From NCBI GenBank assembly GCA_026708265.1, contig JAPOVI010000021.1, forward strand, positions 21,363 to 85,362: DNA of 64,000 bases. Reading direction: 5' to 3'. Source of the stretch: Acidobacteriota bacterium. GTDB taxonomy: Bacteria; Acidobacteriota; Vicinamibacteria; Vicinamibacterales; UBA8438. Under the pieces are notes generated by a model. That model was not told where the DNA came from and did not search any database. It saw nothing but the letters and a program-made list of their open reading frames with translations. Both the position numbers and the translations under genes were made by a program. Shown here piece by piece: positions 6,526 through 11,831 of the stretch (its first letter is position 1; each line of letters starts with the position of its first letter).

Positions 6526-8829
6526 TCAGAAGCGGAAGAGACGGTTGAACTTGACGACGAAGGCCCGGTTCCGGAGGCCCGGGAAGCGGCGGGTCGTCGT
6601 GTCGCGGTCCTCGTTGTAGACGACGAAGAGCTCGCTGCCGGGCTGGTACTCCCAGCGGAAGCGGACGTTGGCCGACACGCCGTCGATGCTCGAGTTGTAC
6701 TGCACGAGGGCGCTCGTGAACATGAGCGGCGTCATCGTGTAGGTCACGCGGGTGCCGACGAGGTTGGTGGTGAACGCTCCCTCCGCGAGGTCGATCCAGT
6801 TGATCGACCACATCGGCTCCACCGAGAGCTGGTTGGTGACGCTCGCGCGCCCGCGCGTGACCGTCAGCCCGGTCTTGTGCCCGCTGTAGAAGGTCCCGTG
6901 CTCGGCGAGGACGTTCGCCGACCAGGGCCGCTGCTGCCCGAAGTCGTAGCTCGCGTTGACGGTGGCGAAGTCGTAGCCGCCCACCGGCAGCGTCACCTCC
7001 CGCGAGATGGGGAAGGGCCGGGGCAGGAACTCGTACGACCGCAGCCCCCCGACCGTGAGCACGTCGCTGTTGTCGAGCTCGATGGCGAACGACGCGAGCG
7101 TCTCGCGGGTCTCGACCTGCCCGGCGAGGTTCTCGACGTAGGCGAACGAGCCGGTCCCGACGAAGCGGCGCACCCAGTCGATGGACCGCGGGCGGGGGCT
7201 GAAGCGGAACTCGGCGAAGCTGCGGCGCATGTCCCGGCGCCGGACGAAGCCGACCTCGGGGTTGAAGGCGTCCCCCACCAGCAGGTGCTCGAGCTGCACG
7301 CCGTAGCGGTCGCCGGCGTAGTCGAGGTGCCCCCGGTAGGTGGTGTCGTTGCCCGTCCGGCCCTCGCTGCGCGTCCGCGCCCAGTGCGTGTTGATGGTCA
7401 GGTCGTCGAAGAACCCGAAGGCGCCGTCGACGCCGTACGCCGTGTTCTGGCCGCGGCCGTCGATGGCGACCGAGCGCCCCGTGAACATGGCGCCCACGCT
7501 GCTGCGCCGCAGGAGGTCGCGCCGCGCCCGCAGCACGGTGAAGCTGGTGGCGCGCGCGCCCGCGTCGGGGGCGTCCCCGGCCCGAATGTTGAGGGCGCCG
7601 AAAGTGAACGGGCCGGCCCGCCCCGTCACGCGTCCTCCGGCGTGCAACGGGACCTCGCGGAAGTCCTGCAGGCCGATGCGGCGGCTGTAGAAGAGGACCG
7701 GGGTGTCGCTGACGCCGGCGAAGCGCCCCGCGGTGGCGACGCCGCCGAAGCCGAAGATGCCCTGGTTCTCCAGGAAGAACTCGCGCTTCTCGGGGAAGAA
7801 CAGGTTGAAGCGCGTCAGGTTGATCTGCTGCTCGTCGACCTCCACCTGCGCGAAGTCCGGGTTGATGGTGAAGTCGGCCGTCACGCCCTGTGTCACCCCC
7901 AGCTTGACGTCGAGCCCGCCCGCGGCTCCCACCTCGTTCGCGAACGGCTCCGCCGTCACGGTGCTGGTCGTGAGATCGCCGATGACGTAGGGCTTGGCCT
8001 CGAAGAGCCGCGACGCGGGCGGCGCGTCGATGCCGACCAGCGTCGCCGCGAGCGACGCCCGGAAGTGGCCGCGCAGGCCCTGGGCCGCGGTCAGCGGCGT
8101 GAGGTAGGACGACTCGTTCCGCCAGCGGTTGACCCGCCGTGCCTGCACGCCCCACACCTGCGGGCCGGCGCCGCGGTAGCGCAAGGACTTGAAGGGGAGG
8201 GCCGCCTCGACCGTCCAGCCGCCGTCGAAGCGGCCGACCGAGACGTCCCACACCGGGTTCCAGTCGATGCTGATCTGCTGCTCGTTCGTCACCTGGGCGT
8301 CGATCCGACCGCCCACCGCCGACACCTCGAAGAGCACGGCGTTGCGCCGGTCGTAGAAGGTGTCGAACGACCAGGCGAAGTTGTCGTCGCGGACGATGCG
8401 GGTGTTGTCGCGCCGCATCTCGCTCGCCATGACGAGGTCGGGCCGGCTCTCCCAGCAGCGGGCGACGACGTAGACGTTCTCGTGGTCGAAGAGGATCCAG
8501 ATCTCCGTCGTCTCCGAGGCCGGCGCCCCCTCCACGGGGTCGTTCTGGACGAAGTCCGACATCGCCGGCACGCGCGCGAACACGGGCTCGTCGAGCCGGC
8601 CGTCGATGCCGAGCGGCTCGTCAATCCGCACGGCGCGGACGGTGACCCCGCCGTCCGGGCCGCGGTTGATGACGGCGGGCGGGACGGGCGGCGGTGGGCC
8701 GAACAGCCGCCCCGGCGGAAGCTGCAACCCGGCCTGGCCCCCCGCCGCGCCCGGCGCCGGCAGCCCCGCCAGTGCGGCCAGCAGCAGGAAGCCGCGGGCG
8801 GGGAGGCTCCCCGCGCGTCCACCCGTCAC
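6526..8829 (-). CDS. DUF5916 / CBM9-like outer-membrane beta-barrel protein
   Basis: GTG start at 8829; signal-like N-terminus; VRAVRIDEPLGIDGRLDEPVFARVPAMSDFVQNDPVEGAPASETTEIWILFDHENVYVVARCWE, then INPDFAQVEVDEQQINLTRFNLFFPEKREFFLENQGIFGFG typical of DUF5916; C-terminus ...FVVKFNRLFRF fits a beta-barrel. The 5' part of ORF 6526..9672 is a shadow frame. Confidence 0.85.
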   Translation of the reverse strand: MTGGRAGSLPARGFLLLAALAGLPAPGAAGGQAGLQLPPGRLFGPPPPVPPAVINRGPDGGVTVRAVRIDEPLGIDGRLDEPVFARVPAMSDFVQNDPVEGAPASETTEIWILFDHENVYVVARCWESRPDLVMASEMRRDNTRIVRDDNFAWSFDTFYDRRNAVLFEVSAVGGRIDAQVTNEQQISIDWNPVWDVSVGRFDGGWTVEAALPFKSLRYRGAGPQVWGVQARRVNRWRNESSYLTPLTAAQGLRGHFRASLAATLVGIDAPPASRLFEAKPYVIGDLTTSTVTAEPFANEVGAAGGLDVKLGVTQGVTADFTINPDFAQVEVDEQQINLTRFNLFFPEKREFFLENQGIFGFGGVATAGRFAGVSDTPVLFYSRRIGLQDFREVPLHAGGRVTGRAGPFTFGALNIRAGDAPDAGARATSFTVLRARRDLLRRSSVGAMFTGRSVAIDGRGQNTAYGVDGAFGFFDDLTINTHWARTRSEGRTGNDTTYRGHLDYAGDRYGVQLEHLLVGDAFNPEVGFVRRRDMRRSFAEFRFSPRPRSIDWVRRFVGTGSFAYVENLAGQVETRETLASFAIELDNSDVLTVGGLRSYEFLPRPFPISREVTLPVGGYDFATVNASYDFGQQRPWSANVLAEHGTFYSGHKTGLTVTRGRASVTNQLSVEPMWSINWIDLAEGAFTTNLVGTRVTYTMTPLMFTSALVQYNSSIDGVSANVRFRWEYQPGSELFVVYNEDRDTTTRRFPGLRNRAFVVKFNRLFRF

Positions 8830-10229
8830 GCGGAGGGCTCCCGGCGGCGCTGCAGGCCGGCCAGGCTCATGGCCGCGATCTCCCCGAACTCGTCGCCGAA
8901 GAAGCCCTCGGGCGCGTTCCGGACGTTCCCGAAGCGATCGAGCTCGAGTTGGGTCAGGCTGGAATGACTGTCGGTCGCCGTGCAGTGATACAGCGCCACG
9001 TCGTCGTCCGCGACCGTCTTGTCCGCCAGCCGGCGCTGGAGACGGCGCAGCAGGCGCTGGCTGTGGCTCTCGAGCAGGATCTGCAGGCGGCGCTTCTGAC
9101 AGGCGTCGACCAGCACGTCGGCCAGTCCGGACCTCGCCACCGGGTGCAGCCCCAGCTCCGGCTGCTCGAGGATGACGGTCGACCCCGCGGGCGCCCGGAA
9201 GCAGAGGACGAGCAAGGGGAGCACCTGGGCCAGACCGGCCCCGGCGTCCGCGGCGAGCACCTCGGGCGAGTCCGCGGACTTCGCCACGCGCAACTCGAAG
9301 ACCTGGCTGTCCTCGGGCAGCGAGGCGAGCCGGAAGTGGTAGGCCAGATCGAGGTCCCGCAGCCACTGGGCGACGTACTCCTCGAGCGTCAGGCGCCGGC
9401 CGGTCCGGCCGCGCCCTACCGTCTCGCCCCGTTCCCGCGACGCCAGCAGGGCGCCCACGGCCGACTCGCCGGCCCGCCCCACGTCGGCCGGCTGCTCGCC
9501 GGCCCAGCGGTAGCGCCGCCGGAGCGCCGCCCGCCAGGGGCCGAGATAGTGGAGATGCTGCAGGCGCTCCTCGAACGCCGACTCGAGCCCGGTCAGGAAC
9601 CCCGCGTTCTGGTAGTGGAGGCGGGCGTGCCCCGGGAATCCGTAGCACTTGTTCGGCGCCGGCAGCGGCCACATGCTCCGTCCCATGCGGCTGACGAACT
9701 GGAACTCGGTGCCCTCGACCAGCAGGTCGTACTCGCCGCGGGCGTTGCGGCGGCGCATGCCGAACGAGATTCGACCGACCCGGTGGCCCATCTCCTGCAG
9801 GATGGTCCGCCGCCGGGCCCTGCGGCCCGCAGCGTCGCTCCGGAAGCCGGACGCCGGGGATTGGCGGGCGACCACGGTGAAGCCCAGTTGCGTGTCCTCT
9901 GCCAGAGGCCGTCCCTCGTCGTCCGGGTTGGGGAGCCGGAGCGGCGTCGGCGCGTTCCAGTCGAGTGCGATCGACAGGCGCGAGTCCTCCCGGTGGCGGT
10001 GAACGGCGCTGCGGAAGTCGCCCAGGTCGGCCGGCGTCTCGCCGTCGCCGAAGTCGAACACGATCCCCCGGTTCGACGACTCCGCGGTCTGCTTCAGCAG
10101 CAGCGGCGCCTGGAGCAGGTTGGTCTTGCCGGCTCCGTGGGGACCGAAGAAGGCGGTCAGGGGTTTGAGGACGACGTCGCCGGTGTCGGCCCAGGACTTG
10201 AATGCCTTGAGTCGCAGACGGGTCAGCAT
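8826..10229 (-). CDS. AAA/SMC-like ATPase with DUF3696-like C-terminus
   Basis: Walker A GPHGAGKTN; ILEQPELGLHP; ESHSQRLLRRLQRR; C-terminal LDRFGNVRNAPEGFFGDEFGEIAAM resembles DUF3696. Confidence 0.8.
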   Translation of the reverse strand: MLTRLRLKAFKSWADTGDVVLKPLTAFFGPHGAGKTNLLQAPLLLKQTAESSNRGIVFDFGDGETPADLGDFRSAVHRHREDSRLSIALDWNAPTPLRLPNPDDEGRPLAEDTQLGFTVVARQSPASGFRSDAAGRRARRRTILQEMGHRVGRISFGMRRRNARGEYDLLVEGTEFQFVSRMGRSMWPLPAPNKCYGFPGHARLHYQNAGFLTGLESAFEERLQHLHYLGPWRAALRRRYRWAGEQPADVGRAGESAVGALLASRERGETVGRGRTGRRLTLEEYVAQWLRDLDLAYHFRLASLPEDSQVFELRVAKSADSPEVLAADAGAGLAQVLPLLVLCFRAPAGSTVILEQPELGLHPVARSGLADVLVDACQKRRLQILLESHSQRLLRRLQRRLADKTVADDDVALYHCTATDSHSSLTQLELDRFGNVRNAPEGFFGDEFGEIAAMSLAGLQRRREPSA

Positions 10230-10262
10230 CGGGGGCTCGGGTCGCGCGCGGCTGGGGTCAGC

Positions 10263-11831
10263 TTACTGCACGTGCTTCCGCCAGGCGCCGATCGCGTCCT
10301 CGAGCGCGGTGCGGAACACTGCTATGTCGCCTCCTCCGCCGTGGGCCTCCAGCTTGCCGACCGTGCGCGCCACCTGCTGCTCGGTGCGGTTGAGCTCGTC
10401 GGCGAGGGCGGCCAGCGCGGCCCTCGAGCCGGGCCGCTGCCGCGGCGCGCCGTCGAGCAGGTCCTCGAAGTTGCGCATCAGGGCCCGCAGGTCGTCCGCG
10501 CCGAGGCCGAACGCGCTGGCGTAGGAGGCGGCGTCTCGCGAGAGCATCTGCCACACCCAGGCCTCGGGCGGCCCGTCGCCCGGCAGGAACAGGGGGCGAA
10601 TGCGCCGCCCGAACTCCTCCGCGACCCCCGCCAGCCGTGCCTCCAGGTCCCGGGAGCTGCCGTCGAGCACGAACACGAACTCGCTCAGCTTGCCGCACTG
10701 GCCGAGCGTGCGAACCTGCGCGGGCAGGTCGCCGGGACCGGCGTTGCGCCCGATGTCGAAGTCGTCGGGGCGCAGCCCCAGCCTGGAGCCCAGCGCGTCG
10801 AGCACGCCCACGATCAGCCCCTCGGCGACGTCGTCCTGGCACAGGATGGACAGGCGGTCGAACGACTGCCCGTACAGCGAGCGCTGCACGACGTCCCGAT
10901 AGGCGGGCAGGCGGCGGACATCGCCCGGCCAACGCTCGCGGTCGAGCACGATGCGGGCGTCGGGCGGCACGCTGTTCAGCACCACGGCACTGTGCGACGC
11001 GACGACGACCTGCAGGCGCTGCCGGAGCGCGATGCGCTGCAGCTCCAGCATCACCTGCTGCTGGGTGTGCGGATGGAGACCCGTCTCGACCTCGTCGATT
11101 AGGACCAGGGCGTCCTCGAGCTCGGAGAGGTCCTTGGACATGCGCAGGATCGTGCGCTCGCCGGACGACATGTGGAACTCCGAGTAGCGCACGTCACCCG
11201 GCCCGTCGACGGCCGCGAACAGGACGTCGCGGGTGCGCATGCGAACGAGCGACAACCGCCGGTAGCGGAGGGGCAGGATGCGGTGGGCGAAGATGAGGAG
11301 CTCCGGGGGGAGGTCCGTCACCTCCGCCGCCCCGGTTCCGGTGCGTCTCGCGAGACGCTCGACCTGCGAGCAGGCGCGACCCGAGAAGTGCCGGACGTAG
11401 AGCGGCCGCTGCGGCTGCCGGCCGCCCCGGCGTCCCATGAAGCTGCGCGTCCACGACTTGTTGCGGCGCCACACCATGGACAGGCGTTCGGCGTCGTGCA
11501 GGTAGTAGAACTCGAGCTCGGTGGGGTCGACGGGGTCGGCGAGGCCCGTCGATTCCCCTCCGGCGAAGTGCGGGAAGAGGGTCGCCGGCGCGTACTCCCA
11601 AGCACCCCGTCCGGGCACCCGGTAGGCGCAGGCGCAAGCGAAGAGCACGGTCGACTTGCCGCACCCGTTCGGCCCGGCCAGCACCGAGACCGGATAGTCG
11701 AACGTGATCCGGAGGTCCCGAATCCCGCGCAGGTTGCGGATCCGAACGTCGTACAGACCGAAGCGGCGCTCGGTGCCGCTCGCCCGCAGCGATCGCCAGA
11801 CTTCCTGAAGCTCCCGGGTGACGAGCGACAT
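10263..11831 (-). CDS. AAA/SMC-like ATPase with C-terminal Toprim-like segment (OLD-family-like)
   Basis: MSLVTRELQEVW start; Walker A GPNGCGKST; signature SSGERTILRMSKDL; Walker B ALVLIDEVETGLHP; ASHSAVVLNSVP; then LSILCQDDVAEGLIVGVLDALG...FVFVLDGSSRDLE, Toprim-like. Confidence 0.75.
   Translation of the reverse strand: MSLVTRELQEVWRSLRASGTERRFGLYDVRIRNLRGIRDLRITFDYPVSVLAGPNGCGKSTVLFACACAYRVPGRGAWEYAPATLFPHFAGGESTGLADPVDPTELEFYYLHDAERLSMVWRRNKSWTRSFMGRRGGRQPQRPLYVRHFSGRACSQVERLARRTGTGAAEVTDLPPELLIFAHRILPLRYRRLSLVRMRTRDVLFAAVDGPGDVRYSEFHMSSGERTILRMSKDLSELEDALVLIDEVETGLHPHTQQQVMLELQRIALRQRLQVVVASHSAVVLNSVPPDARIVLDRERWPGDVRRLPAYRDVVQRSLYGQSFDRLSILCQDDVAEGLIVGVLDALGSRLGLRPDDFDIGRNAGPGDLPAQVRTLGQCGKLSEFVFVLDGSSRDLEARLAGVAEEFGRRIRPLFLPGDGPPEAWVWQMLSRDAASYASAFGLGADDLRALMRNFEDLLDGAPRQRPGSRAALAALADELNRTEQQVARTVGKLEAHGGGGDIAVFRTALEDAIGAWRKHVQ

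Follow-up and report, generated by a model that had tools for sequence, protein, structure and literature searches.

HEC-03 and HEC-04, the candidate systems closest to the two genes described here, belong to the HECs, or 'Hma embedded candidates' (PMC10855318), some of which have shown antiviral activity (PMC12988326). Our literature search found no functional data on HEC-03 or HEC-04, and nothing useful on HEC-03 together with HEC-04, DUF3696 or pseudonucleases. In PADLOC, HEC-03 is a candidate made up of a PIN-like protein (HEC-03A) and an ATPase (HEC-03B). Gabija GajA and the class 1-2 OLD nucleases join an ATPase to a Toprim domain, GajA being accompanied by the UvrD-like helicase GajB. 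PARIS is a two-gene unit in which an AAA_15/AAA_21 ATPase (AriA) is paired with a separate Toprim nuclease (AriB). An OLD-family ATPase may also work outside defence: Cran1, a class 5 OLD protein of the Sulfolobales, has a cell-cycle role in which its ATPase activity, not its nuclease activity, is critical (PMC12796447).

Here we analyse two genes, A and B, lying in a window of 64,000 nucleotides (the whole stretch of DNA that was studied) from a bacterial MAG of 446 contigs. A first-pass annotation had proposed that they form a defence-like pair of an ATPase with a Toprim effector and a second ATPase, and had not recognised the combination as any named system. We agree with the latter point; the proposed effector fared less well.

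Two adjacent genes encode defence-type ATPases of different families

Two consecutive minus-strand ORFs, 33 bp apart, were present as first annotated, and they encode two different ABC-type ATPases, each with ABC motifs. Their main features are as follows.

10263..11831, minus strand: gene A, a HEC-04 / ATPase-Toprim I-B relative with a C-terminal Toprim-like domain (ORF, Pfam, PADLOC)
11649..11675, minus strand: Walker A of A, GPNGCGKST, residues 53-61, conserved in the A family
11154..11171, minus strand: ABC signature of A, MSSGER, residues 221-226, conserved in the A family
11091..11108, minus strand: Walker B of A, LVLIDE, residues 242-247, conserved in the A family
10230..10262, minus strand: gap between A and B, 33 bp (35 bp in the congener G001)
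8826..10229, minus strand: gene B, a 467-aa HEC-03B-type ATPase with a DUF3696 tail (PADLOC HEC-03B, 1.9e-115)
10122..10145, minus strand: Walker A of B, GPHGAGKT, residues 29-36 (sequence motif)
9141..9176, minus strand: Walker B region of B, VILEQPELGLHP, residues 352-363 (sequence motif)
8877..9008, minus strand: DUF3696 of B, residues 408-451 (Pfam, 34.0 bits against a cut-off of 22)

The product of gene A is a 522-aa ABC/OLD-type ATPase, counted from the ATG at 11831. The 536-aa ORF reported in the first-pass annotation exists and begins with GTG, but we preferred the ATG because the relatives of gene A start there. The protein also shows LVLIDEVETGLHP from residue 242 and VASHSA from residue 277, and it has the ABC ATPase motifs expected of ATPase-Toprim proteins of the OLD/retron I-B type. 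Pfam assigned it to AAA_21/AAA_15. The best PADLOC match was HEC-04 (1.9e-33), with further matches to Septu and retron ATPases, including the retron type I-B ATPase-Toprim effector. The HEC-04 match is partial, covering the first 346 residues of A and profile positions 27-333 of 494, whereas relatives of A with intact motifs matched HEC-04 at 1e-37 to 2e-41 and their HEC-04 and ATPase-Toprim I-B matches extend into the Toprim part. Close relatives share 40-55% identity with A. As a lone gene, the ATPase-Toprim family is expanded in these acidobacteria: several genomes of the bacterial family carry 2-3 copies (e.g. G014, G007 and G013; loci L035, L036, L037, L038, L039, L042 and L043), in clades that are about 40% identical, and the Toprim acids were present in all of those checked.

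Gene B resembles HEC-03B over its full length, the PADLOC match spanning residues 1-462 of 467. A match to NsnB of Menshen was far more distant (1.3e-42), and neither NsnA nor NsnC was found among the neighbours. The DUF3696-like tail that had been recognised from the sequence was confirmed by Pfam, which also assigned AAA_21, and a structure search matched SMC/Rad50/OLD heads, giving B an SMC/Rad50-like head fold. In addition to its Walker motifs, B shows DAGAGLAQ from residue 328 and LESHSQ from residue 386. The signature serine, otherwise invariant, is an alanine in B (S334A); for this reason ATP hydrolysis by B is uncertain. The earlier view that both ATPases come from defence-type families thus stands.

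The Toprim-like domain of A has lost two catalytic acids

The first-pass annotation had read a Toprim-like stretch at the C-terminus of A. The features that bear on this claim are the following.

10542..10871, minus strand: Toprim-like region of A, residues 321-430, catalytic residues replaced (model secondary structure, hhalign of relatives, motif loss)
10836..10838, minus strand: Q332 (CAG), the Toprim Glu in 23/23 other family members (alignment)
10656..10658, minus strand: S392 (AGC), the second Asp of DxD in 23/23 other family members (alignment)

In an AlphaFold2 model of A, strands 327-331, 358-362 and 385-389 alternate with helices 334-351, 368-378 and 394-406, which is a Toprim-like order; the model is of moderate quality (pLDDT 68.6, pTM 0.50, 11 sequences), and the alignments used for folding were shallow (11 and 8 rows). 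A profile of the C-termini of intact A relatives was compared by hhalign with OLD-like Toprims, represented by PF20469 matches from relatives. This one profile comparison gave P = 6e-4, with hhalign's own probability at only 28%, and a register in which the glutamates coincide and DGD falls opposite DxD. Pfam Toprim matched neither A, nor its C-terminus, nor the intact relatives; since the intact relatives are also unmatched, its absence from A says little. When the C-terminal alignment was searched as a profile against the PDB, nothing emerged beyond coiled-coil proteins and a weak hit to DNA primase (E 0.21). Whole-chain Foldseek placed retron/Septu PtuA and TsOLD (6p74) at the top, with TM-scores of about 0.3-0.4 and a large rmsd, and therefore supports the ATPase type only. 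Taken together, the model and the profile alignment make it likely, short of proof, that residues 321-430 adopt a Toprim fold.

The stretches quoted for this domain are present, but QDDVAEG and LDGSS are precisely the sites at which the catalytic glutamate and the second aspartate of DxD are replaced. In 12 close relatives (40-55% identity) the glutamate of LCED never varies, nor does the second aspartate of VLDGD; both are also kept in the other 11 family members, two of them acidobacterial (L119 and L120) and nine from viral contigs (18-27%). E332Q and D392S occur in A of all three genomes of the genus, with the same codons, CAG and AGC; since three independent MAGs agree, a sequencing error is unlikely. 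Further invariant Toprim positions have also changed (E368D, F369L, H372Q, K378Q and F379C). N363 and A364 were considered as additional losses and rejected, as intact relatives have them too. In Cran1, E338 and D393 are among the presumed metal ligands, and nuclease activity is absent from the metal-site triple mutants, including one in which both residues are changed (PMC12796447). Judging from the motifs, these two residues probably correspond to E332 and D392 of the A family, and we infer that A has lost nuclease activity. D333, E337, D390 and E423 are still acidic in A, and some metal binding could survive.

The PIN-like partner of B is missing

An HEC-03A-like PIN ORF follows B in all 27 other copies checked, with an IS3-type transposase in between in one of them; these copies come from Syntrophales, Entotheonella, viral contigs and acidobacteria, the window's own MAG contributing a second copy. 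No HEC-03A was found beside B in the window or in the congener G001. In the window, one feature leaves no room for HEC-03A after B.

8826..8829, minus strand: stop of B, overlapping the putative GTGA start of the DUF5916 outer-membrane gene (sequence)

Genome-wide, HEC-03A was found neither in G001, which is estimated to be 100% complete, nor in G003. The window's own MAG has one HEC-03A elsewhere (C262), but its contamination is estimated at 9.4%. HEC-03A acting in trans was rejected as a general answer because G001 has none.

In canonical HEC-03 loci an RNA ligase (PF09414, 4e-19 in L054) is often the third gene, directly after the PIN-like gene (L054:15-2045; L071:1501-4021; L156:5001-7619; L157:5001-7629); these ligases had no PADLOC match. 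On plasmids of Azotobacter and Aeromonas, the gene for the DUF3696 ATPase is followed by one for a small protein of fitting size and then by an RNA ligase gene. The combination of ATPase, PIN protein and RNA ligase suggests a system that cuts RNA and brings its own enzyme for repair. A natural break of the canonical system was seen in G180, where an IS3-type transposase lies between HEC-03B and a HEC-03A remnant (L075:2856-4305).

The make-up first proposed, an ATPase with a Toprim effector, is therefore not supported: the Toprim-like domain is without two acids present in 23/23 relatives, and B is without its PIN partner. Nor is a Gabija- or PARIS-like system supported. A resembles GajA in its domain order, but catalytic residues are missing and no GajB is found among the neighbours; the locus resembles PARIS in comprising two genes, one of them for an AAA_15/AAA_21 ATPase, but the second gene encodes a HEC-03B-type ATPase and not an AriB nuclease. 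Could the pair still cut as an anti-phage system, with an altered Toprim using D333, D334, E337, D390 and E423, or with a nuclease recruited from elsewhere? Both families are of defence type, several acidic residues remain in A, and the window's own genome has, at other places, an intact A paralogue as well as a HEC-03B/HEC-03A/RNA-ligase operon. Against this, every other family member examined keeps the glutamate and aspartate, even at about 18% identity, the triple mutants of Cran1 are inactive (PMC12796447), no defence genes occur among the neighbours examined, and G001 retains the pair without HEC-03A and, like G003, yielded no intact A paralogue. We consider cutting unlikely.

The pair is confined to one genus and is under purifying selection

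The order caiB-DUF5916-B-A-MBL-serine hydrolase is identical in G000 and G001, and G003 shows A-MBL-serine hydrolase on a contig that ends inside A. The A-B order was found in this genus only, at one fixed site; among named records that carry both genes together, Acidobacteria bacterium COS4_bin_27 (JAPOYG010000636.1) is the nearest. The defence-pair proposal had been made to depend beforehand on the genes being neighbours elsewhere, and outside this genus they are not: no A-B pairing was found among 193 genomes of the class, 347 of the phylum, plasmids and viral contigs. Relatives of both genes co-occur in genomes, but at separate places, and the DUF5916 orthologues of other genera (about 72-77%) are flanked by neither A nor B. 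The DUF5916/CBM9-like outer-membrane-type gene itself (window 6526-8829) is one of roughly 8-16 such matches in each genome of this bacterial family. Next to the pair lie the DUF5916 gene and genes for a serine hydrolase and a protein of metallo-beta-lactamase fold, and PADLOC matched none of the ten flanking proteins examined; the setting is therefore not a defence island.

Phylogeny and selection point to a fast change followed by constraint. The A proteins without the motif form a single clade (100/100) that is nested among intact clades, with a stem of 0.62 versus 0.30 for its sister clade; the stem of B, 1.21, is among the longest in the B tree. Pairwise dN/dS (Nei-Gojobori) was 0.12 and 0.11 for A, 0.13 for its Toprim part and 0.10 for B, on small samples of 19 non-synonymous changes for each gene; four neighbouring genes gave higher values, 0.14-0.23. 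From the long stems and the low dN/dS it follows that A and B changed greatly on one stem and then stayed fixed, and such strong conservation after the long stems argues against decay.

These data bear on the remaining explanations. The pair might serve in defence without cutting, e.g. by blocking phage DNA in the manner of an ATP-dependent sensor, clamp, decoy or regulator. The defence ancestry of both genes, their long stem branches and the SMC/Rad50-like head of B would suit such a role, but a fixed chromosomal place in three species with low dN/dS is unlike the patchy pattern typical of defence genes, and there is no defence island; we judge this as improbable as continued cutting. Slightly less probable again is that A and B are chance neighbours, each with its own unrelated role. 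So far just three MAGs, all closely related, are known to carry the pair, so that simple inheritance may account for the linkage, and the relatives were never found adjacent outside the genus; on the other hand, the two genes share a strand, are separated by 33 bp, keep their order in G001 and were both altered on the same stem. That they are a relic, two inactivated and decaying defence genes side by side, is very unlikely: both nuclease functions appear lost and A family members do decay elsewhere (a broken copy, L047, in G024:C91 and a fragment, L048, in G019:C74), but A and B are open in every genome holding them, their dN/dS of about 0.1 is not above that of the flanking genes, and all the ATPase motifs are kept.

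Discussion

We tentatively favour the view that A and B are a defence-derived ATPase pair, stripped of its nuclease output, that now works as an ATP-dependent, non-cutting unit. In this scheme, A would have been drawn from the ATPase-Toprim HEC-04/OLD-like family and B from HEC-03, an ATPase with a PIN-like partner, the two having been brought together in the genus's ancestor. On the genus stem both diverged fast; A acquired E332Q and D392S and B lost the HEC-03A gene, and each would thereby have been deprived of its nuclease output. Purifying selection has since acted on both, with the ATPase motifs retained. The two ATPases would bind and turn over ATP, and the dead Toprim of A and the DUF3696 tail of B may offer surfaces to which nucleic acid or protein binds. 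An interaction between A and B, with an output of binding, clamping or regulation rather than cleavage, is what we infer from the locus. The role of the pair may lie outside defence, as with Cran1, or in non-nucleolytic defence. Somewhat more tentatively still, we propose that one acidobacterial genus assembled a two-ATPase machine from the ATPase halves of two separate nuclease-based defence systems, discarded the nucleases and conserved the machine for a non-cutting chromosomal or regulatory job.

If so, the pair would stand as a counterpart in bacteria to Cran1, which is archaeal and has kept an active Toprim nuclease (PMC12796447), and another case of defence genes turned to other uses. 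Defence ATPases have mostly been studied with their nucleases attached, and a conserved nuclease-free pair would reveal what the ATPase half does alone. The locus also calls for caution, as a family name by itself is insufficient to call such loci defence systems.
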